Translations under genes and position numbers: made by a program
Notes under the pieces: generated by a model
The model's database searches: none
Seen by the model: the letters and a program-made list of their open reading frames with translations, nothing else
What the model was told of the DNA's origin: nothing
Origin: Pseudochrobactrum saccharolyticum
Lineage (GTDB): Bacteria > Pseudomonadota > Alphaproteobacteria > Rhizobiales > Rhizobiaceae
DNA: 64,000 nucleotides
Assembly: GCF_008801715.1 (NCBI RefSeq)
Contig: NZ_VZPG01000001.1
Location: forward strand, 1 to 64,000
Reading direction: 5' to 3'
In this document: positions 11,424-21,975 of the stretch, piece after piece
Layout: each line of letters opens with the position of its first letter
How positions within the stretch are numbered: position 1 is the stretch's first letter

Positions 11424-11703
11424 GCAAACTGCGAAGATTTTGTCCGTTTCGAGCAAGCAGCTAATTCGGTTGACGAATGACGGCGAGATCCCGTTTATTA
11501 ATATCGGGCGCGGAGGGCGTAAAGTTCGCCGCTATGAGCCATCGGATATTGAAGCCTTCAAGAGCCAGAGGAAGATAACAGAATGCCAGTTTACATCAGA
11601 AAGGATAACAAAGACGGCACCTACTCCTACGAATTTCGGCTACAAGGTCGTAGATTTTCAGGCAACACTGGCAAAAAGTCGGAGCGAGAGGCGCGCCAAG
11701 TAG
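11401..11703 (+). CDS. Excisionase-like MerR/HTH_17 DNA-binding protein
   Basis: The 100-residue product begins with a helix-turn-helix of the excisionase type (MSQLLTVEQTAKILSVSSKQ, then LIRLTNDGEIPFINIGRGG and RRYEPSDIEAFKSQRK, residues 1-58). I use the TTG at 11401 because AAGGAGAAGGGA lies directly upstream. Its last 120 nt overlap the integrase gene in another frame; the DNA-binding domain ends before that overlap. It probably sets the direction of integrase action at the tRNA-Pro attachment site. Confidence 0.75.
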   Translation: MSQLLTVEQTAKILSVSSKQLIRLTNDGEIPFINIGRGGRKVRRYEPSDIEAFKSQRKITECQFTSERITKTAPTPTNFGYKVVDFQATLAKSRSERRAK

Positions 11704-12704
11704 AACGCGCCAAACGCAAAGAGGCTGAAAAGCTCCTCGAGGAAGAAAAGCAGTTCGGTGCGGATGACCTGACATTTGAGATTGCTGCATCGAAATACTG
11801 GCATGAAATCGGCCAGCATCAAAAAGATCGCGAGAACCTGCTTTGGTCGCTGGATTGGCTACAAACAGCAATCGGTAGAAGCACTAGACTAAGCAAGATC
11901 AATGATAATCTGGTTGCTGGTCTGGTTGCGAAGCGCCGCAACGATCTGATCCCTAACCGTAAGCCCGAACAAAAAATCTCTCCGGCCACCGTAAACCGCA
12001 CAATGACACAGCGGCTGCGCTCCATACTTATTCGCGCCGCTAAAATCTGGAAAGTCCGGACAGGTGAAGTCATCTGGTCTGCACACCTACTGAGGGAATC
12101 CGGTGAACGCATCCGAGAAGCTTCAAGGATGGAAGAAGCAAAGATTATGTCTCAACTGGATCGCGGCTATGATACGGCCGTACAGTTTGCTTTTCTCTCC
12201 GGCTGCAGACGCATGGAAATACTCGGTCTTGAATGGAGCCGTGTTGATTTCTTTGGACGCGCCTTTTCCGTGATAGGCAAAGGAGGGAAAACCAGAATTA
12301 TACCAATGTCACAGGCGATATTTGATCTGCTCTGGCAAGAGCGAGGCCACCACGAGGTAAAGGTATTCACCTATGAAGCCAAGCGCACTTTGAAAAATCG
12401 CGGCTTGTGCCGTGGCTTACGATATCCCCTCACCGAGGCCGGTTTAAAAACGGCAATGCGCCGCGCTGTTGCAGATGCAGGTGTTGAGAACTTCAGATTT
12501 CATGACACACGGCACACAGCCGCTACTCGCATTTTAAGAGCAAGCAATCTGCGCGTTGCACAGAAGCTCCTTGGTCACGAAGATATCGCCACCACTACGA
12601 AATATGCACATGCTTTGGTTGATGATGTGCGCAATGCCATGGACGCAATGAACACCGCGAGGGACCCCGCACCGCTCAATCAGATCAAGACTGCTTCTGA
12701 GTGA
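11583..12704 (+). CDS. int: Tyrosine-family phage integrase
   Basis: A 373-residue site-specific recombinase. The N-terminal part (1-60) has the arm-binding-like MPVYIRKDNKDGTYSYEFRL strand set and a basic helix; a core-binding domain spans about 65-165. The catalytic domain shows R209 (SGCRRMEIL), K236 (GKGGKTRI), H307-x-x-R310 (FHDTRH), H332 (LLGHED) and Y341 (TTKYAH). All catalytic residues are present, so it should be active. It points toward the tRNA-Pro fragment 670 nt downstream, the expected placement of int next to attP. Confidence 0.95.
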   Translation: MPVYIRKDNKDGTYSYEFRLQGRRFSGNTGKKSEREARQVERAKRKEAEKLLEEEKQFGADDLTFEIAASKYWHEIGQHQKDRENLLWSLDWLQTAIGRSTRLSKINDNLVAGLVAKRRNDLIPNRKPEQKISPATVNRTMTQRLRSILIRAAKIWKVRTGEVIWSAHLLRESGERIREASRMEEAKIMSQLDRGYDTAVQFAFLSGCRRMEILGLEWSRVDFFGRAFSVIGKGGKTRIIPMSQAIFDLLWQERGHHEVKVFTYEAKRTLKNRGLCRGLRYPLTEAGLKTAMRRAVADAGVENFRFHDTRHTAATRILRASNLRVAQKLLGHEDIATTTKYAHALVDDVRNAMDAMNTARDPAPLNQIKTASE

Positions 12705-12782
12705 GATTTTTGCCCACCAGCAAGTCAAATAGTATCGCCGTGATAAAGAAGTGGGTGGAAATATGATTAGACAACGCTACGA

Positions 12783-13187
12783 TCAGCGGGCGAGAACTGC
12801 GATTAATTTAAAGCGCTCACAGACAATTTCCATATCAGGTTCGAAGCCACCATTGCGCTCAAAGTAAGCTTGGTGCCCTTTTTCCCACTCCGTGAAGTCG
12901 CCCTCTCCTTCCGCTTCCGCGAAATCATGATCAACTTCATCAAAACGGCTTATGGTAACATCTGTTGTCTCAATGACGCATGCAGGTCGACCGGAACCGT
13001 CTAGCACAACATCACGGCGCCCCACTTGTGGCATCGGCTCCCCGTCCGCTCCGAAATCGCGCAAAGCGGCACAGGTCGCGGTTTTCTTGCCAGCCAACAC
13101 TAAGTTTAGCAGCTCATCAGCCAGTTCTGGGCTATCCCCGAAAGCAAACGTGAAGGCATCTTGGAATTCAGGAGGAATTGAGGTCAC
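12783..13187 (-). CDS. ASCH-domain protein
   Basis: This 134-residue protein is an ASCH (PUA-like) domain: LLNLVLAGKKTATCAALRDF (about 27-46) and the VGRRDVVLDGSGRPACVIET strand pair are characteristic, followed by a DFTEWEKGHQAYFERNGG helix. ASCH proteins are thought to bind RNA or nucleotides; some hydrolyse modified nucleosides such as N4-acetylcytidine. The start is GTG 13187 with GGAG six nt upstream. It lies between the integrase and the attachment site, facing the integrase, so it is cargo of the prophage. The substrate is unknown. Confidence 0.8.
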   Translation of the reverse strand: MTSIPPEFQDAFTFAFGDSPELADELLNLVLAGKKTATCAALRDFGADGEPMPQVGRRDVVLDGSGRPACVIETTDVTISRFDEVDHDFAEAEGEGDFTEWEKGHQAYFERNGGFEPDMEIVCERFKLIAVLAR

Positions 13188-13374
13188 GGAGTGCTCCAGT
13201 TGTCGGGCATTTTAATGGTGAAAAAGCTGGATTGTCTTTTAGGGGGACTGAAATTTGGCACAAAGGATGGGAGTTGAAGTAACAACAAAAAATGCCACGA
13301 AAATTACCACGAAAGCTCGGCCAGTATTATTAACTGATTGTTTTTCTTAGGGTTTCAAACCTAAACAACACTTT
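13188..13374. other. Prophage terminal segment before the att site
   Basis: This segment contains no gene. It should include the arm sites for integrase. It carries an inverted repeat AGGGTTTCAAACCT (13349-13362). Confidence 0.4.
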
Positions 13375-13413
13375 CCCCCAGTCAAGTGCGCTACCTGGCT
13401 GCGCTACGCTCCG
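13375..13413 (-). tRNA. tRNA-Pro(GGG) 5' fragment; prophage attachment site (right end)
   Basis: Read on the minus strand, bases 13413 to 13375 give the 5' half of a proline tRNA: acceptor strand CGGAGCG, TA, D-arm GCGC-AGCCAGGTA-GCGC, A, and anticodon arm CTTGA-CTGGGGG with anticodon GGG. The match stops after the anticodon loop: the expected TCAAG 3' strand and T-arm are absent, replaced by AAAGTGTTG. The fragment therefore is a disrupted or duplicated 5' half at the phage-chromosome border. The intact gene is expected at the left end of the element, outside the window. Confidence 0.8.
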
Positions 13414-13420
13414 AACACCT

Positions 13421-13448
13421 AAAAGCCCTAGAATATAAAGGCTTTTTT
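13421..13448. terminator. Hairpin next to the tRNA fragment
   Basis: AAAAGCC (13421-13427) pairs with GGCTTTT (13440-13446) and is followed by T on the plus strand; it could end transcription from either side. Confidence 0.45.
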
Positions 13449-13814
13449 GGCAAGGGATTAAAGCGTGGAAAGATATCACCTTCCCCAAAACGCAATATAA
13501 CTTACCCAAAATGATTTAATTTTTTAAAGCATTAAAAGGAATATGCTGAAATTTTATACTCCCATTTGCATGTTTAGCATTTTGCAACCATTGAATATTA
13601 TGAGCCGTAGAAAGACAAACATCACAGATTTAAATATACGATAATTATACACATATTTCACCGGAAACGCTGCCCCCACACAGATGGGTTTCTTAAGGGA
13701 AAAATATCAACCCAAATATTAACTTATTACAGCGAATTTTTACAAAAAATACCTTATAAGCAATCATCTTGTTTAATATTACACTCAACGCCCCCCAATT
13801 TTGAGAATAGCACT
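13449..13814. other. AT-rich intergenic region right of the prophage
   Basis: This roughly 365-nt stretch is markedly AT-rich and holds no plausible gene. It should contain the original promoter of the split tRNA-Pro gene on the minus strand, and the promoter of the glycosyltransferase gene; no convincing -35/-10 pair stood out. Confidence 0.5.
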
Positions 13815-14885
13815 ATGAATGCATTTTATTTCGTTATTGATGAAAATTTAGTAGAAGTCGTCAATGCACAAGCATATCACATTGCGAAAACTTGGGCATG
13901 CGATGTACATATTTTTATTGAAAAACAAAATAAAAATACGTCAAATATTGAAGTCAACTACAACAATAAAATTAAATACCATTACAATCTCCTAATGCAA
14001 TTTCTACCTCAGAATCTGCCCAATAGTAGCAAATGGCCGCTTATTGTTTATCTCAGGCTATTCGCGCCCAGATTTTTAAAAAGTTACAATCGGGTTTTAT
14101 ACTTGGATGCCGATATTCTGAGCATTCGCGTAGCACAAAATATCTGGACAATACCACTTCCTTACGGTGTTGGTGCAGTGACTGACTACGGATCACTTCA
14201 AGTACCGCCAAGTCCTTTTGATAAGCTTTCACGCTCGGAATGGTTGCAACATATAGGTGTAACATCCTCCAGCTATCTAAATTCCGGCGTACTCTTAATT
14301 GACGTTTCCAAATGGGTACAAATTAACTTTACGGCCGAACTCAAAATGTATTTTGATAAATATCCTCATGCAGTTTGTTTTGACCAGGACTTTCTGGCCT
14401 CATTTTTAAACGGAAACTGGACAGACATCGGTCCAATATTCAACTATCAGGCCGTATTGCTTAACTCCGGTCTATCGAACGCTATTGCCCCTGTCTTTGT
14501 TCATTTCAGCCAACCAGAGAAACCATGGTATGGCTGGATCGAAAGCGGGAGCACAAATCTTGATCCCTATTTTGGCAAAATATACCGTGACTTATTGACA
14601 GAAATTAACATTGACCCTTCTTTACACGAGCGCGCAATCACAACCAAATTTGCCAAGAAGATCAAAACAAGGCTTCGAAAAGCGCTGTCTGTTTTTGGAT
14701 TGCGAAGCCAAAAAGAGAAAAATGCATTCTCACAAAATGAAGCTGATCGAAGAGTTTATATAAAAAACATCAAAGCAAACGGATTTGATATTTCACTCAC
14801 TGAAACACTGGATGAAATCTATTTTGACGGAAGAAATATCCGATCAAAATTCACATTTCCCAAGGATATTTCTCGCCACAAATAG
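13815..14885 (+). CDS. Glycosyltransferase family 8 protein
   Basis: A 356-residue retaining glycosyltransferase of family GT8. It has the N-terminal nucleotide-binding fold, the metal-binding D-x-D motif in VLYLDADIL (D98, D100), an SSYLNSGVLLIDVSKW segment, FDQDFLASFLNG, and the HFSQPEKPW motif near residue 238 that binds the sugar-nucleotide phosphate. The final 80 residues are basic and variable. GT8 enzymes in Gram-negative bacteria often add galactose or glucose to lipopolysaccharide core. Composition is AT-rich relative to the core genome and the gene starts directly beside the tRNA site, which suggests horizontal acquisition. Confidence 0.85.
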   Translation: MNAFYFVIDENLVEVVNAQAYHIAKTWACDVHIFIEKQNKNTSNIEVNYNNKIKYHYNLLMQFLPQNLPNSSKWPLIVYLRLFAPRFLKSYNRVLYLDADILSIRVAQNIWTIPLPYGVGAVTDYGSLQVPPSPFDKLSRSEWLQHIGVTSSSYLNSGVLLIDVSKWVQINFTAELKMYFDKYPHAVCFDQDFLASFLNGNWTDIGPIFNYQAVLLNSGLSNAIAPVFVHFSQPEKPWYGWIESGSTNLDPYFGKIYRDLLTEINIDPSLHERAITTKFAKKIKTRLRKALSVFGLRSQKEKNAFSQNEADRRVYIKNIKANGFDISLTETLDEIYFDGRNIRSKFTFPKDISRHK

Positions 14886-14887
14886 AA

Positions 14888-15685
14888 TTACTGCACATCA
14901 ACAATCATTCTTTTATCGACAGCCAAGCGTTTCAGTTTATACACTCCTCGTTTAAGCTCACGCAGCATTTTCTGACCTCCGGAAAGAGAGCCGCGTTTTT
15001 TTTGAATCAAGTTAACAACAGAACGATCTTCAATATTGCCACCCAAAGTTAAGGTTCCTGCGGATAAAACTTGTTCTTGTGCGCATACCGCCGGTACTAA
15101 TTGAAAAATGATATTATTTGCAAAAACCTCACACCCTGGGTCAAATAAATAGTGATCCACAGGTGCCGGCATATAATTAACTGTCTCTTTTAACAGAGAT
15201 ACAGCCAAACGACGGGATATAATATAGCCGCCCGCCCCTGCATGAAAACCGACCATTTTCAGCAAGTGTCGATCACGTATCTGAAGTCTCCACCATCGTT
15301 TAAAATAGACCTTCGTTTTAAAGGTTTCGAGACGCAGTATATTCACATCAGCCGGCACCCAGTCAGAACTCTCAAGAAAATCAGCTGCGCTATCACTGAG
15401 GATAATATCGTCCTCGAAAATTGCGGCATATTCATCCGTACTGGCAACAAGAATTTCCCAGCATTTCCGATGGCTCATAAAGCATGCAAATTCGGAATTA
15501 GTCGGCTTTGGCCAATCTTTATGCAACACAATATTGTCGAGTTCACTCTGAGACAAACCACGCGCATCAACGGCAGCCACACGTTCAAAATCAAGTTTCA
15601 AGCGCCCAAATTGCTTATGACAATGTTTCAGCCTATCGGGAGATCTATCCAGATTTATAACAAGATTTTTCATAGAATGGCTCAC
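14888..15685 (-). CDS. Glycosyltransferase family 25 (LPS biosynthesis)
   Basis: This 265-residue protein matches the GT25 family: MKNLVINLDRSPDRLKH at the start, the FACFMSHRKCWEIL segment (about 66-79), the acidic metal-site motif IFEDDIIL (E91-D93), and DPGCEVFANNIIF further on. GT25 members such as LpsA/LgtB transfer galactose to lipooligosaccharide. The start may be GTG 15685 or the ATG at 15673. It is convergent with the GT8 gene (2 nt apart) and shares its AT-rich composition, so the pair probably entered together and modifies a surface glycan. Confidence 0.85.
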   Translation of the reverse strand: MSHSMKNLVINLDRSPDRLKHCHKQFGRLKLDFERVAAVDARGLSQSELDNIVLHKDWPKPTNSEFACFMSHRKCWEILVASTDEYAAIFEDDIILSDSAADFLESSDWVPADVNILRLETFKTKVYFKRWWRLQIRDRHLLKMVGFHAGAGGYIISRRLAVSLLKETVNYMPAPVDHYLFDPGCEVFANNIIFQLVPAVCAQEQVLSAGTLTLGGNIEDRSVVNLIQKKRGSLSGGQKMLRELKRGVYKLKRLAVDKRMIVDVQ

Positions 15686-15845
15686 GTTACAATTCTGCTC
15701 CTTCTAAATTTTATTCTCAGCGGGGGCAAGACAATGAAGCATTCCGCTTTCAACTGCCATCTCTTTCCTGAATTCAGACCTCAATAATCGCGCTTGACCG
15801 CAACTAAAAATAAGAACATTATAAGAACAAATAGAGGATTCTATA

Positions 15846-16097
15846 ATGTCTCTCGCCGCACAAAACCCTGAAAAATATATCATTATACCGTTTCGTAAGA
15901 ATAATCAGAAACTTGTTGCGGCGGAAATGCGCCCTGCTTCCAGTGAGGCAGGTGCCATTAAGATTGCCACATCTATGTCCGGCCGGTTTATTGGTGTTGC
16001 GGCCTATGCTGTGATGGTTGATGAAGAAAGCGGCGATATAAACGCGCCGCGCCTGTTAGCAAGCTTTGGCGAAGTGCCTGATTTCAGTGATGATTAA
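15846..16097 (+). CDS. Conserved hypothetical protein (83 aa)
   Basis: The small protein (MSLAAQNPEKYIIIPFRKNN) has alternating beta segments and a GRFIGVAAYAVMVDEESGD motif that I recognise as conserved among Hyphomicrobiales without a known function. A ribosome binding site AGAGGATT precedes ATG. It is likely a core-genome gene, marking the return to vertical chromosome. Confidence 0.65.
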   Translation: MSLAAQNPEKYIIIPFRKNNQKLVAAEMRPASSEAGAIKIATSMSGRFIGVAAYAVMVDEESGDINAPRLLASFGEVPDFSDD

Positions 16098-16180
16098 AGT
16101 CTGATTTCCTGTTTATTACCCACCGGACATTCGCACTCTATGCAAGCTCTTTCAGTAATATAACCGGCAAAGGATTCAGT

Positions 16181-16492
16181 ATGCGCATTCTATTTCTCAA
16201 AATGATTACAACCGCACTTTTGATGATGGGGCTGAATTCAGCATCATTGGCTGCTCTTGCACCGCAGTATCAGCGCGCAAATGAAATGAATGCTGTCATC
16301 TCTGCGGTTACTGAAACGCTGTCTCCGCAACAAGCTGTCACCAAAGTCGTTTATCAGAGTGAAGACCAGTATTTGGTGGTCGCAGGCAATTGCTCAATCA
16401 AAGCAACTCTTATCACGCTTCCGGCAAAGGCCGGACTGGTAGGGCCAAGACAATTTAAAGTTCAGCTTGGAAAACAACGCTGCAAAAAATAA
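16181..16492 (+). CDS. Small secreted hypothetical protein
   Basis: The 103-residue product starts with a signal peptide (MRILFLKMITTALLMMGLNS, with a likely cleavage after SLA near residue 25). The mature part contains two cysteines (GNCSIK and QRCKK) that could form a disulfide in the periplasm, and a KVVYQSEDQYLVVAG strand. No known family. Confidence 0.6.
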   Translation: MRILFLKMITTALLMMGLNSASLAALAPQYQRANEMNAVISAVTETLSPQQAVTKVVYQSEDQYLVVAGNCSIKATLITLPAKAGLVGPRQFKVQLGKQRCKK

Positions 16493-16508
16493 AGCCGTGC
16501 ATCGAAGA

Positions 16509-17042
16509 TCAGAACTGATGGATCAGATGAATATCATCCGGCTCCAGAGCATATAGTTTCTGATCCGGCTGTTCTATCGGATGGCCGCCCTGATGCAGAT
16601 AAAACTCGACCGTATGCCGCGTTGAGGTTGAAGAAATATAGAACCCTTCCGCACCCTGCTCTTTGACAATTTGCATAGATTTCCGGTAGAGGCGCGAGGC
16701 TAATCCGCGCCCGCGCCAATCATGACTGACATGCAAAAATGACAACTGCCGATATTGCGGATAATCCGTAACCGGCCGCGCATCAACAACAGCCACCGCA
16801 ACCAGTTTTCCTCCCGCAAAAGCACCGGTAAATGTGCCGCCATGATCGTAACATTCCAGCAAGATCGGCGTGTAGAGCTCAGGCTCTCCTTCCGGCCAGT
16901 CGCGTGTATCATAAAACTCTGAATGTAACTGCAAGCGGCCGTCAGTGAAACGGTAGACTTCCTGAACAATCTCGCGCCGCTCAATCTGCCAGACTGATAC
17001 CACCTCGTCGCGTGTAAGCGGACGTATCTCTATAGTTTGCAT
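16509..17042 (-). CDS. GNAT-family N-acetyltransferase
   Basis: A 177-residue acetyltransferase. The acetyl-CoA site is visible as SFLHVSHDWRGRGLASRLYR (about residues 103-122), preceded by the GKLVAVAVVDAR strand and followed by STSTRHTVEFYLHQGG, the usual C-terminal element. Substrate unknown. It is the terminal gene of a minus-strand group, 29 nt after emrA, and could be co-transcribed with the efflux genes. Confidence 0.8.
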   Translation of the reverse strand: MQTIEIRPLTRDEVVSVWQIERREIVQEVYRFTDGRLQLHSEFYDTRDWPEGEPELYTPILLECYDHGGTFTGAFAGGKLVAVAVVDARPVTDYPQYRQLSFLHVSHDWRGRGLASRLYRKSMQIVKEQGAEGFYISSTSTRHTVEFYLHQGGHPIEQPDQKLYALEPDDIHLIHQF

Positions 17043-17071
17043 TCAGACCTCGCTCTGTTGTCATGCGAGCA

Positions 17072-18118
17072 TTATTCCGCTGCAACTCTGGTATCAACCT
17101 TTACGATAACCGACATACCTGGCATCAGACGTTCGACCTGCTCCTGCCCGCCATCAATAGCAATGCGAACCGGCAGCCGCTGCGTTACCTTGATAAAATT
17201 CCCTGTCGCATTATCCGCTTTCAGAACACTGAATTCCGAGCCTGTTGCCGGAGAAAAAGCTTCGATATGACCGATCATTTTCTCATGGTTTAATGCATCC
17301 ACAGTGAATGTCACCGGTAGTCCGGCTTTCATACCGTAAAACTGCGTCTCTTTAAAATTGGCAATGATCCACTTTTTATCAGGCACCAGATTTGTCAGCT
17401 GTGCACCAATATTGACATATTGCCCCGGCTTCGCACCGATTTCCCCAAGCACACCATCCTGAGGCGCAATAATTTTTGTATTGCTCAGATCAATTCTGGC
17501 CAGATCAACTGCAGCTTCTGCATTTGTCACAGCCGCTTCGAGAGAATGCCTGCGAACAATGATGGATTGTACATCCTGTTTATTGACTTCCAGCGCAGCC
17601 TCAGCCTGACTGACAGCACCGCGCGCCTGTTCCAAAGCAGATAAAGACTGGTCTTCATTGCTCTGGGTCATCACCCCGCTTTTACGCAAAGGTGTCACGC
17701 GGTTATAATTCGCCTCGGCCACATTCAACGCCACTTTCGCAGTGTTCAGCACTGCTTCGCCGGAGCGTGTCCGTGCCTTTGCGGCTAAACGATCCTGCTC
17801 AGAATTTGCTAAAGATGCTTTTTGCGTTTCCAGCATGGCCTCAGCCTGTTTCAGCTTCTGCACATAGATGCGGTCATCCAGCGCAAATAACACATCACCT
17901 TTTTTCACACGCAGATAATCGCGCTCCGGCACTTGCTTGATATAACCTGCCAGCTGAGGGCTGATAATTGTGACCTGCCCGCGGACATAGGCGTTTTCTG
18001 TCATCTGCACGGAGGAGCGAAATGGCGGCAGCTGCCAGGCATAAAGGATGAACAATACGCCGCAGAGACCAATAGCCAGAATAAACAATGTTGCCGAATT
18101 ACGAAAAATCTTCTGCAT
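17072..18118 (-). CDS. HlyD/EmrA-type membrane fusion protein
   Basis: A 348-residue periplasmic adaptor. One N-terminal transmembrane helix (about 10-30, LFILAIGLCGVLFILYAW) anchors it; then a first lipoyl half (AYVRGQVTIISPQLAGYI), a coiled-coil hairpin (about 95-190), the second lipoyl half (IIAPQDGVLGEIGAKPGQYV) and a beta barrel with FKETQF. It joins the inner-membrane pump encoded upstream to an outer-membrane channel. It lies 27 nt after the EmrB-like gene, in one operon with the MarR regulator. Confidence 0.9.
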   Translation of the reverse strand: MQKIFRNSATLFILAIGLCGVLFILYAWQLPPFRSSVQMTENAYVRGQVTIISPQLAGYIKQVPERDYLRVKKGDVLFALDDRIYVQKLKQAEAMLETQKASLANSEQDRLAAKARTRSGEAVLNTAKVALNVAEANYNRVTPLRKSGVMTQSNEDQSLSALEQARGAVSQAEAALEVNKQDVQSIIVRRHSLEAAVTNAEAAVDLARIDLSNTKIIAPQDGVLGEIGAKPGQYVNIGAQLTNLVPDKKWIIANFKETQFYGMKAGLPVTFTVDALNHEKMIGHIEAFSPATGSEFSVLKADNATGNFIKVTQRLPVRIAIDGGQEQVERLMPGMSVIVKVDTRVAAE

Positions 18119-18145
18119 TTCAGATACTCACAAATCAAAATCTAC

Positions 18146-19957
18146 TTATGCGGGCTGCGCAATTGCGCGCCCGTGAATCAAGCGCCAAAGTTTCCCGATT
18201 ACGGGGAAAACAGCGCGACGGATAATCAGAATGGCCAAAGTCAGCGCGGCGATAGCGGATACAAGCAGAAACAGATCATTATAGGAGAGCACAGTTGCTT
18301 CCTTCGCGATCTGCTGGCCAAGCAGCATCGCACCTTCAGCCTGAATATAGGCAGGATCAGTGATAACCTTCGATATGGCTGCCGATAGCTGCGAGATACG
18401 CAAGGTCACCAGAGGATCAGTCAGTACAATCTGGTCATAAAGCGCACGCATATGATGCTGCTGCCGCCATGTTACAAAGCTGCCGAAGACTGCGGAGCCA
18501 AACAGCCCGCCCACACTCTGCGTGAAAATGAAAATCACAATAAAGCTGGTAATATAAGCTGGTCCGTTTTTCAGTGCACTCATCAAGCCCGCCGCCATGG
18601 CAGGCGGTAAGAACAAGGCTCCGCCGAATGAAATCATCGCCTGACTGAGATACATCATTTCAGGACGGGTCAGATTATTGGCATGACCATCCATGAAGGC
18701 ACCGGTCATAATCAATATCAGCGCAACTGCATAAATATAGGCCTCACGTCCCGGACGGATAACCATCGCGCAACTGATACCGCCCATAAACGAGCTGATA
18801 ATCAGAACCCAGTAAAGGCCGGTGCTTTGCTCATTATAAATGCCGAGCGCCTGAAACATACCCGTGGCACCCGCTGTCTGCTCCGATAGCACCAGACGAA
18901 ACACCAGCAACATGCCGGTAAAAGTCAGCGTCTGCCTGCTGGTCAGCCAGCGGATATTAATCAGCGGATTTTCACGGTTGAATTCAATCGCTGCAGCCAA
19001 TGCCAGAGCAGCAAAAGCAACCGCGAGACAGATGCCGATCCACGGTGCCTCAAGCCACCAGTATAAACGACCGACAACCAGCATCATCGCCAAAAGTCCG
19101 AAACCGGTTGCAATCAGCGGATAGCTGATGAAATCCAGTTTTTCGAGCACTTTCTGATGCGGGATCGGTGTCAGCTTGAGTGTATAGACCGTTGCAAAGC
19201 ACAGCATCGCCAGACCGATTTCCAGCATATAAAGCTGCTGCCACAGACCGGCATCCAGCAATATAGGAGAAATAATGCGCGACAGCGGTGCACCAAGTGT
19301 CGTGCAGGTCAAAGCAAGACACAGCCCCCAGCTCATTTTCTTGCTCGGGGGAAATGCTTCAAGCATATAGAAAAAGCCGAGCGTCGACATCGGCGATGCT
19401 GCAGCCCCGGAAAAGAACCGCACAATCAATGCCGAGTTCAGGTCATGGATAAACCAGTGCAGTGATGTAACCACCACAAATGTCAGCAGCCCCAGTTCTG
19501 TGAAACGGCGCAACCCGTATTGCGTGCGGATTTTCATCAGGAACAATGTCAGGCTGACATTCGGCGCCATATAAGCAGCAAGCAGCCATGTTGTTTCCGC
19601 AGTCGTAGCGCCAAGTCCGCCCTGTATTTGCGGAATATTGACTGCAACCATATTCAGACCAATGCCCTGTGTGATCCACATCAACAGAGATGCACACACA
19701 AAAGCAGCAGAAAGCAGAAACGGTTTTGCCGGTGGTACAGGCGGAGCCGCAGGAGCCTGCGGGGCATCAGATGCAGGAGCTTCCACCGCTTCCTCAACAA
19801 GCGCCGGTTTCACCGACTGTTGTGAGGCGGAAGGCACAGCTTCAGCTGATGGCTTTTCCGTTTCCTGCACACCGGCTTTTGCCGGATGCAGCACTGCATC
19901 GGCATCATCTCCGGCCTCTTCAGGCTCATCCTTTCCGGTCACTCTTATATCTGCCAT
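18146..19957 (-). CDS. EmrB-type MFS drug efflux pump (DHA2), long N-terminus
   Basis: A 603-residue major facilitator with about 14 transmembrane segments, starting near residue 78 (FLLSAAFVCASLLMWITQ). Family landmarks include the IPQIQGGLGATTAETTWL stretch after the first helix and GAPLSRIISP. It differs from typical EmrB (about 510 residues) by a 75-residue cytoplasmic tail rich in Ala, Pro and Glu (for example DAPQAPAAPPVPPAKP), predicted disordered. It exports drugs or other toxic compounds by proton antiport together with the EmrA-like protein. It follows the MarR gene by 7 nt. Confidence 0.9.
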   Translation of the reverse strand: MADIRVTGKDEPEEAGDDADAVLHPAKAGVQETEKPSAEAVPSASQQSVKPALVEEAVEAPASDAPQAPAAPPVPPAKPFLLSAAFVCASLLMWITQGIGLNMVAVNIPQIQGGLGATTAETTWLLAAYMAPNVSLTLFLMKIRTQYGLRRFTELGLLTFVVVTSLHWFIHDLNSALIVRFFSGAAASPMSTLGFFYMLEAFPPSKKMSWGLCLALTCTTLGAPLSRIISPILLDAGLWQQLYMLEIGLAMLCFATVYTLKLTPIPHQKVLEKLDFISYPLIATGFGLLAMMLVVGRLYWWLEAPWIGICLAVAFAALALAAAIEFNRENPLINIRWLTSRQTLTFTGMLLVFRLVLSEQTAGATGMFQALGIYNEQSTGLYWVLIISSFMGGISCAMVIRPGREAYIYAVALILIMTGAFMDGHANNLTRPEMMYLSQAMISFGGALFLPPAMAAGLMSALKNGPAYITSFIVIFIFTQSVGGLFGSAVFGSFVTWRQQHHMRALYDQIVLTDPLVTLRISQLSAAISKVITDPAYIQAEGAMLLGQQIAKEATVLSYNDLFLLVSAIAALTLAILIIRRAVFPVIGKLWRLIHGRAIAQPA

Positions 19958-19964
19958 GATAAAA

Positions 19965-20408
19965 TCAGCTGATTGCTTCCATATTCTTCAAAATTACCCG
20001 CATAATGCGTAAGCCCTCATCCAGATCGGCCTCGCTCAAATCCTGAAGAATGCGGATGCGCAATTGCTCAGCGACAACGTGCAACTCTTCCACCTGATCA
20101 TGTGCCGCTTCGGTCAGAATGATGTGCTTGGCGCGTCTGTCGCCCTCCACGGCACGTCGCGTGACCAGCCCCTGCTTTTCCAGCCCGTCAATGAGGCGCA
20201 CCAGTGTCGGTGTTTCAATTTCCAATGCCGCAGCCAGTTCTGTCTGCGTCATGCATTCATGGGTTGAAAGCAAAAACAACGTGCGGGCACGGGACAATGT
20301 CATGTCGTGCTCTTTGGCGAATGCATCAAATAAAGTGCGCAGCTTGCGCCCCGCCACGGACATATCCGTGAGCAAATCAGCACGTTTCTGTATGATTGCA
20401 GGTTTCAT
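19965..20408 (-). CDS. MarR-family regulator of the efflux operon
   Basis: The 147-residue protein has the MarR winged helix: LSRARTLFLLSTHECMTQTE, then AALEIETPTLVRLIDGLEKQ and the wing GLVTRRAVEGDRRAKHIILT. It heads an operon with the EmrAB-type pump, the standard layout for an autoregulated, ligand-released repressor. ATG 20408 (MKPAIIQKR) is preferred, though MCVLM 12 nt upstream is also possible. A candidate operator lies at 20429-20447. Confidence 0.85.
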   Translation of the reverse strand: MKPAIIQKRADLLTDMSVAGRKLRTLFDAFAKEHDMTLSRARTLFLLSTHECMTQTELAAALEIETPTLVRLIDGLEKQGLVTRRAVEGDRRAKHIILTEAAHDQVEELHVVAEQLRIRILQDLSEADLDEGLRIMRVILKNMEAIS

Positions 20409-20428
20409 GAGCACACACATAGGTAGGA

Positions 20429-20447
20429 AGCTAACAATTATTAAGCT
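20429..20447. promoter_or_regulatory. Candidate MarR operator
   Basis: AGCTAACAATTATTAAGCT is an imperfect 19-bp palindrome with AGCT ends and a central ATT/AAT symmetry, within an AT-rich promoter zone 21 nt upstream of the MarR start. MarR dimers typically bind 16-20-bp palindromes here. Confidence 0.5.
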
Positions 20448-20589
20448 ATATAATTTTATTTAAAGCATTTTGCAACCCGATATGCGCGATAAGCGTTTAC
20501 TCATCACTGTATTTAAGGTGGACAAACATCAGACAGTCGGGTTCACATGCCCTTATCCGCAAGCAAATCATTTCATAACGAGGACAAAT

Positions 20590-21009
20590 ATGGCGTTCAG
20601 CTCCACCAAACTCATTCAATCTGCTGTGATTTCTGCAGGATTAATGCTCGCAGGATTCAGCACCGCCAATGCTGCGGAATCCGGAATTTACGGCAACTGG
20701 ATTACAGAGCGCATTCAGGGACATAAAGTGCATGCAAAAGTGCAATCCACCCTTGATATTGCGCAGGATGGCAAAATTTCCGGCAGTGGCGGCTGCAATC
20801 GCTATATGGGCGGCATGGAAATTAAAGGCGATAAAGTAAAAGTGCAGCCGGTTGGCGCAACACTGATGGCCTGCCCGCCGCCTATGATGCAGCAGGATTC
20901 CAAATTTCACGCCGCACTTAATCTGGTCACAAGCTGGAAACTCAGCAAAAACAAACTGATCCTGATTGATTCAAAAAATCGTGAAGTGCTTCGTCTGAAG
21001 CGTGTCTGA
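20590..21009 (+). CDS. META/HslJ-domain secreted protein
   Basis: A 139-residue exported protein with a signal peptide (about 1-28, ending in ASTANA-like FSTANAAE) and a META domain marked by GKISGSGGCNRYMGGMEIKG and GATLMACPPPMMQQDSKF. HslJ-type proteins are linked to heat shock and novobiocin resistance in E. coli and act in the envelope. ATG 20590 follows GAGGACAAAT; the longer upstream frame is unsupported. Confidence 0.85.
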   Translation: MAFSSTKLIQSAVISAGLMLAGFSTANAAESGIYGNWITERIQGHKVHAKVQSTLDIAQDGKISGSGGCNRYMGGMEIKGDKVKVQPVGATLMACPPPMMQQDSKFHAALNLVTSWKLSKNKLILIDSKNREVLRLKRV

Positions 21010-21021
21010 GACCATAAAAAC

Positions 21022-21053
21022 AAAAACGGGGCGGTTTACACCACCCCGTTTTC
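21022..21053. terminator. Bidirectional terminator between META and MerR genes
   Basis: AAAAACGGGGCGG pairs with CCACCCCGTTTT around a short loop, with A and T runs on the two sides; it can serve both convergent genes. Confidence 0.8.
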
Positions 21054-21072
21054 CTAAAGTCAGAAACTATCT

Positions 21073-21597
21073 TTAGCGCACCTGATCGAGCAGGCGTTTG
21101 CATTCCAGCAAATCGAAAAGCGCTTCCTGCAACAAAGTGCGGTTGTCTTTATTCAGGCGTTTGGAATCAGCGCCCATCGGCCCCTCTTCATCACCGCGCA
21201 GCAGGCCGAATAATTTACGGCCGCCTGAAGACTGGCGCTGTTCTTCCGGATCATAATCATCAATCGCCGCATCCTGCGCAGCTGTCGCCTGCTTCTGACG
21301 CGTTATCGCCTCAACAGCAGCAACATCTCCATTGCCGAGCGCAATGATGAATTGTGCATTATTTTCACGCAGCAAACGCTGCACACCTTTGATTGTATAG
21401 CCCTGATCATAGAGCAGATGACGGATGCCCTTAAGCAATTCCACATCCAGCGGACGGTAATAACGGCGTCCGCCGCCGCGTTTCATCGGCTTGATCTGGG
21501 TAAAGCGCGTCTCCCAGAAACGCAGCACATGTTGCGGCAAATCCAGATCTTCCGCCACCTCACTGATCGTCTTAAACGCATCAGGACTTTTATTCAT
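21073..21597 (-). CDS. MerR-family transcriptional regulator
   Basis: The 174-residue protein opens with a MerR winged helix ([20 protein letters not shown], then [20 protein letters not shown], residues 9-49), a helix [20 protein letters not shown], and a divergent acidic C-terminus with EEGPMG. It is the MerR gene regularly found next to ihfA in Brucella and relatives. It lacks the cysteine set of metal-sensing members, so its signal is unknown. Confidence 0.85.
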
Positions 21598-21975
21598 GTA
21601 CTGCCCCTTTCCGGTCGTAAAGGAGTATCACTCAAACGATACACAACTTGAATGAATCACATTTCCTGCAAAAACAAGGCATTCCGCATATAAACATATA
21701 AAAAACAGGCCTATCTCTGACAAAAAAGTCGAGAATCCGGTTCTGACCGCGGCACTTTGTTCGGCATTTATAATGATTCTTATTATCACCTACCATAATG
21801 CAAAAATCGCAGGCTGCATAATGCCTTAAGCGGAAAACCTATCAAGGTTAAAAATCCGTATCACTCACGGCACAGAGACAGGCCCTGATCCGCCATAACA
21901 TGCGCAGAAAGTAAAACACCGGCCACATATGCAGCCGGTGCTTCAAAATCGGAAGCCTTTAAGTAAGGCAGATAA
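21598..21975. other. Intergenic region between ihfA and merR genes
   Basis: About 380 nt without a gene. It contains the ihfA terminator (21914-21941), the promoter zone of the merR gene, and an AT palindrome-like ATAATGATTCTTATTAT near 21770 that faintly resembles Fur-type boxes but is too weak to call. Confidence 0.5.
21914..21941 (-). terminator. Terminator after ihfA
   Basis: On the minus strand CACCGGC and GCCGGTG form a stem with a 10-nt loop, followed by TTTT. Confidence 0.65.

Follow-up and report, generated by a model that had tools for sequence, protein, structure and literature searches.

A prophage that probably supplies the 5' half and a putative promoter to its host's tRNA-Pro(GGG) gene in Pseudochrobactrum saccharolyticum and other rhizobia

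Results

The window, by which we mean the whole stretch of 64,000 nucleotides analysed here, is the first 64 kb of contig C1 (NZ_VZPG01000001.1) of the Pseudochrobactrum saccharolyticum draft assembly GCF_008801715.1. Its minus strand carries, at 13375-13413, bases 1-39 of a tRNA-Pro(GGG) gene, the last of which form the anticodon loop CTGGGGG, and ARAGORN called no tRNA on the 64-kb window. An intact tRNA-Pro(GGG) gene was called by the same program on the minus strand of a second contig at C2:722070-722146 (coordinates converted from those of locus L002), 26.5 kb short of the end of C2. The stranded 39 nt are identical at 39/39 positions to the 5' half of this gene (C2:722108-722146, both copies on the minus strand), and the two copies part at tRNA base 40, the first base past the anticodon loop. 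An earlier reading of the locus from its letters (hereafter the sequence-only reading) had described exactly this piece, running from tRNA base 1 to the end of the loop and then diverging at once, and had predicted a left junction with the same 39-nt core followed by TCAAG, within an intact gene lying behind phage DNA; both the junction, its loop followed by TCAAG, and the intact gene with phage DNA upstream of it were found on C2. The 5' half, allowing up to two mismatches, is present at just these two sites genome-wide, which excludes a chance match.

Identity between the copies continues for 41 bp before tRNA base 1, broken just at -20 and -34, and is lost at -42. As judged from this alignment, the repeat measures 80 bp with two mismatches rather than 39 nt; it opens with a -35-like TTGCCA and closes with the last base of the anticodon loop. 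We therefore annotate 13375-13413 (minus strand) as the tRNA part of attR and the 41 bp at 13414-13454 (minus strand) as a putative native tRNA promoter block, with TTGCCA at 13448-13453 and TAGGGC at 13425-13430; the hexamers were chosen by position and conservation, and both their choice and their promoter role are putative.

The DNA to the left of the stranded half is that of a prophage. Its right part (C1:1-13374) carries a tyrosine integrase, an ERF protein and a YqaJ nuclease recognised by their domains, and a NinB-type protein and an HNH nuclease recognised by their PHROGs, and its left part (C2:722108-748633) carries terminase subunits, a head-tail adaptor and a major head protein (all by PHROGs), an acyltransferase and a Y-family polymerase. 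The element thus extends over 26.5 kb on C2 and 13.4 kb on C1 with a gap between the contigs. No overlap was found between the end of C2 and the start of C1, and we infer from synteny that the two parts belong to one prophage. The integrase gene (11583-12704, plus strand; PF00589, E 4.3e-28; phrog_1, E 8.7e-49) belongs to a family known from rhizobial prophages and is whole: a single open frame encodes 373 aa and stops 670 bp short of the core. Between it and the stranded half lies an ASCH-domain gene (12783-13187, minus strand; PF04266, E 2e-22), which is oriented like the stranded native promoter block and lies downstream of it. When 12600-13600 was scanned with a terminator consensus, 2 matches were obtained against 0.9 expected, neither of them within 13187-13375.

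Several other genes of the prophage were recorded in passing. The acyltransferase (PF01757; L004 5568-6716) adjoins the prophage tail-protein gene and is a candidate for surface-sugar modification of the lysogen, and the Y-family DNA polymerase gene (PF00817; L004 448-1722) lies approximately 300 bp from the rebuilt left-end tRNA and is divergent from it. A tRNA-Gln(UUG) gene is located on the minus strand 105 bp from the end of C2 (L005 7455-7528; C2:748455-748528) and is the only other tRNA called by ARAGORN in the prophage parts on C1 and C2. One viral contig (L043) also has a tRNA-Gln(UUG), approximately 4 kb before its integrase.

The sequence-only reading had called for comparison with an empty site in a related strain, and such a site was found in G006, a genome of the same genus in which one uninterrupted stretch bears the intact tRNA gene. 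To the left of the tRNA, G006 matches the C2 flank with 87% identity over 5890 and 2398 bp; to the right, it matches the window from 13414 onward in three blocks of 91.7% over 60 bp, 68.8% over 783 bp and 91.1% over 6103 bp, which follow in order and are separated by unaligned stretches. Within the span that could be matched (13414-21868), the chromosome right of the prophage therefore has the same order as the DNA upstream of tRNA-Pro(GGG) in G006, and as the outer flanks are adjacent in G006, they were neighbours before insertion. This decides against a reading in which the stranded half would be an old remnant unrelated to the prophage, with the intact gene lying elsewhere by chance. The location of the two copies on different contigs of a draft genome would suit such a remnant, but the adjacency of their outer flanks in G006 does not, nor does the finding that other genomes hold a like pair of copies on a single contig and strand, at 40.7-67.4 kb from each other in nine and at 9.6 kb in a tenth (G546). 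We rejected this reading on the basis of the empty site and consider it very improbable.

Comparison with G006 also shows which of the two copies is the native one. Over the 41-bp promoter block, G006 agrees with the orphan side at both diagnostic positions and has one difference of its own, and the sequence upstream of the intact gene differs from G006 at both. The match of the orphan side to G006 at -20 and -34 shows that the stranded copy is native and that the copy in front of the intact gene is phage-borne, which bears out the earlier proposal that the chromosome-side 5' half keeps the original promoter. Elsewhere in the genus of the window, five other genomes hold a single 5'-half copy and one incomplete genome holds none. 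In a further member of the genus, G004 (L010 1465-1539), the 5' half of tRNA-Pro(GGG) equals that of the window, but its 3' half lacks an encoded CCA and does not match the 3' half of other members of the genus, which would fit replacement by an element of the common 3' type.

Relatives of the integrase were found on nine named genome contigs (55-62% identity) and on viral contigs, ten of them at 55-61% plus one identical copy. Among the 20 loci, 12 have at least 90 bp beyond the integrase; a stranded 5' half is present in 11 of these 12, on the opposite strand and 62-107 bp past the integrase match, and an intact gene in the remaining one (L032). Eight of the nine named genomes were searchable, and all eight have two copies of the 5' half. 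The orphan pattern was matched in 9/297 genomes of a family-wide sample and in 3/397 genomes of an order-wide sample, counts blind to any orphan in which neither of the two following bases is A. The nine family matches comprise the window's own genome (G000), three at contig positions of genomes already counted, which we took to be the same, and five new genomes with two 5'-half copies each. A pair of copies, one of them stranded, is thus present in 14 distinct genomes, and the second copy is intact in 13 of these. The stranded-half arrangement thus recurs as a rhizobial family. The second tRNA-Pro(GGG) copy of G008 (L052, L060) has 20 nt duplicated in tandem, spanning the D-arm and anticodon loop, and may be a broken gene or an assembly error. 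Outside the count of 14, genome G100 of the order sample has an orphan half adjoining a 42%-identical integrase.

The integrase adjoins the stranded half in nine of the 14 genomes (G000, G008-G014 and G540) and the intact gene in four (G007, G505, G468 and G561), the integrases of the last three being recognised solely by a PF00589 match. A different integrase lies beside the stranded half in G546 (L153, G546:C1:3098000-3109000), whose 9.6-kb element has the same 5' polarity on tRNA-Pro(GGG). The side occupied by the integrase therefore varies among the 14 genomes and cannot serve as a constant marker of the 5' type. The sequence-only reading had held that most tRNA-targeting phages restore the 3' half at the integrase end; the predominance of the 3' half agrees with the counts given in the available part of the Islander paper (PMC4383910). 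In G546, the integrase gene lies behind the stranded promoter and is read the same way.

An integrase tree contained a 21-row clade (support 98/100) composed of 13 rows labelled 5', eight unlabelled rows and none labelled 3', with the deeper forks open. Five rows, including both 3' rows, sit on long branches. A single origin of the 5' polarity was considered and could not be shown, given the open deep tree and the five long-branch rows.

Eight phage records were examined, of which four have a 5' half just past the integrase, two a 3' half and two neither. The deposited genome of Rhizobium phage RHph_I3_18, whose integrase is 43% identical to that of the window, has the tRNA-Pro(GGG) 5' half (38/39 bases) 38 bp beyond its integrase gene, on the other strand, and no 3' half was found in the 6 kb around this gene; its TTGC lies at -50 and not at -40. 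Reading by eye, we take the 5' halves of VSN-002 and Mvi-Yong1342-1 to be Pro(UGG) and that of Ssp-JY40 to be Val(UAC), and on the same footing the half of Ssp-JY42 was labelled 3'. The integrases of two Bradyrhizobium phages adjoin no tRNA half that we could find; the record of one of these phages is annotated with tRNA-Arg at one end and tRNA-Thr at the other. Sinorhizobium phage phiLM21, with an integrase 35% identical to that of the window, carries the 3' half of tRNA-Pro(GGG) (45/45 bases). As this match starts with CTGGGGGTCAAG, the att site of phiLM21 and the present one share the loop, and by this comparison both polarities use one 7-nt CTGGGGG anticodon loop with distantly related integrases.

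The use of the 3' half of the same tRNA by phiLM21, which is also stated in the accessible portion of PMC12429752, might suggest that the element in the window is of the usual 3'-rebuilding kind and that its ends were read the wrong way round. The fragment beside the window integrase is nevertheless a 5' half, as it is in RHph_I3_18, and the chromosome to its right maps upstream of the tRNA in the empty site. On the strength of that site in G006 we rejected a mistaken orientation, which we hold to be scarcely credible.

In nine of the 14 pairs, TTGC is found at the same place in both copies, at -40 (-41 in G468). Across these nine pairs, mismatches amount to 1/36 in the four TTGC columns (contributed by the shifted pair), 3/18 in the next two columns, 44/153 in the 17-nt spacer, 2/54 at -17 to -12, 4/99 at -11 to -1, and 137/270 beyond -40; since the pairs were picked for having TTGC in both copies and the other five were left out, the conservation of TTGC is partly selected for, and the contrast between the spacer and -17 to -1 is not. 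In G007, G014 and G505, two of which are Mesorhizobium, the stranded side has a TTGACC-type block and the rebuilt gene stands behind an unrelated TTGC-type block. The stranded side of G546 is likewise of the TTGACC type, with neither a TTGC nor a TTGACC block upstream of its intact gene, and the stranded side of G008 has no TTGC block at that place.

Such pairs bear on whether the phage copy of the block has a kept function. It might instead have been acquired as part of a longer stretch of host DNA taken together with the tRNA half, and resemble the host block through recent acquisition. The copies in G010 and G012 are identical over the promoter block, as expected from recent capture or exchange, and those of G000 differ at only 2/41 positions. 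In the diverged copies, however, the differences fall mostly in the spacer and beyond -40, with -17 to -1 little changed (6/153), and in G007, G014 and G505 the rebuilt gene is preceded by a block whose type differs from that of the stranded block, and which is therefore not a copy of the block of that host. We judge passive carriage of this kind to be unlikely.

The genus of G014 allowed the native type to be read more widely: 41 genomes were searched and 29 loci of other genomes were read, of which 24 are TTGACC-type and five TTGC-type. The stranded promoter of the two Mesorhizobium lysogens is thus the common type of their genus and the new one is not its copy, a comparison that covers these two lysogens and not G505. 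The two Mesorhizobium lysogens provide the best evidence that the phage brings its own promoter, the activity of which is presumed from its sequence.

Among the five TTGC-type genomes, four (G445, G436, G446 and G416) have a single-copy tRNA-Pro(GGG) with other DNA between the gene and its usual upstream flank, which lies approximately 3.2 kb off in G445, 7.3 kb in G436 and G446, and 23.6 kb in G416; the fifth, G434 (L107), is also single-copy. No integrase relative was found in the stretches read in these four genomes, and the ORFs of the stretches in G445, G436 and G446 did not look phage-like by eye. The four genomes are possibly scars of decayed prophages, or equally holders of an ancestral promoter.

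Discussion

We are highly confident that the stranded half in the window belongs to the attR of a temperate phage, and that the tyrosine integrase of this phage uses the anticodon loop of tRNA-Pro(GGG) as its recombination site, in the less frequent polarity. This interpretation is built on the two junctions, the uninterrupted site of a relative, the rebuilt gene, the identity of the native copy and the same arrangement elsewhere, each established by sequence comparison. Tyrosine recombinases carry out exchange in an overlap that matches the anticodon loop. An overlap of this kind is described in PMC8371274, and exchange in the present case would probably occur within the 7-bp loop. On this reading, integration joins the phage 5' half to the chromosomal 3' half, producing one intact gene at the left end behind phage DNA, and displaces the native promoter block and native 5' half to the right end, where they point into the prophage. 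With a symmetric stem on either side of the loop, a phage may carry either half; the family described here brings the 5' half and must therefore bring the promoter too. The sequence-only reading had likewise argued that the phage must supply the promoter, and the rebuilt gene does stand behind the phage copy of the promoter block, which is presumably active.

The element belongs to a kind already known but in the minority, tDNA islands whose displaced fragment is the 5' one; Islander counts 159 of these against 3760 with a 3' fragment (159/3919; PMC4383910, as far as its available text goes). As in those islands, a complete tRNA gene has a 5' fragment of the same orientation upstream of it, a tyrosine integrase between them and an att site centred on the anticodon. 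Here the complete gene and the fragment both lie on the minus strand of contigs placed adjacent by synteny with G006, the empty site puts the orphan on the promoter side, and the PF00589 integrase lies between the two at 11583-12704. The Islander configuration calls for an element of 2-200 kb, and the sizes observed here (26.5 + 13.4 kb on two contigs with a gap, and the distances in the nine genomes and in G546 given above) can be set beside that range. Islander differs in that the class is counted in a text whose available part is without the word promoter (PMC4383910), whereas here phage and host blocks are compared and can be of unrelated types.

The archaeal pTN3-like elements also use the tRNA 5' half as attB and part the rebuilt gene from its original promoter (PMC8371274, PMC5495485), the gene being then expressed from the integrase promoter, an arrangement seldom met in bacteria according to the accessible sections of PMC8371274. 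Unlike the present element, they are archaeal and their integration disrupts the integrase gene, according to the portions of the two papers available; the window integrase is whole, in one 373-aa frame, and attP has a tRNA-type promoter block, putatively its own. Phage phiLM21 shares with the window element a tyrosine integrase, the tRNA-Pro(GGG) target and an att site reaching into the CTGGGGG loop (PMC5537653, PMC12429752, in the parts available), but carries the 3' half, so that the gene would keep its own promoter. In the tRNA-dependent lysogeny of mycobacteriophages, as presented in the available part of PMC10865867, the phage similarly takes over the supply of a host tRNA disturbed by integration; there, however, the core is approximately 10 bp, the host gene is left unrestored and the phage brings a complete tRNA gene of that isotype. 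In the window genome tRNA-Pro(GGG) is rebuilt, and the other tRNA found in the searched parts of the prophage is tRNA-Gln(UUG). Our literature search, which left most subscription papers outside, found no description of a recurring family, of paired promoters or of unrelated promoter types.

A tRNA gene that serves as a phage integration site ordinarily retains its own promoter. We tentatively raise the possibility, itself rather doubtful, that lysogenisation by the present phages amounts to a promoter swap, in which the host tRNA gene would come under a phage-borne promoter and the host promoter would read into the prophage. If so, the stranded promoter would run against the integrase in nine of the 14 genomes, in the window genome through the ASCH gene first, and the swap could set the supply of tRNA-Pro(GGG) in lysogens and damp integrase expression; decay of the prophage could leave permanent promoter replacements. 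These genomes hold natural pairs of host and phage promoters, some of unrelated type, which would make the effect of lysogeny on host tRNA expression directly testable.
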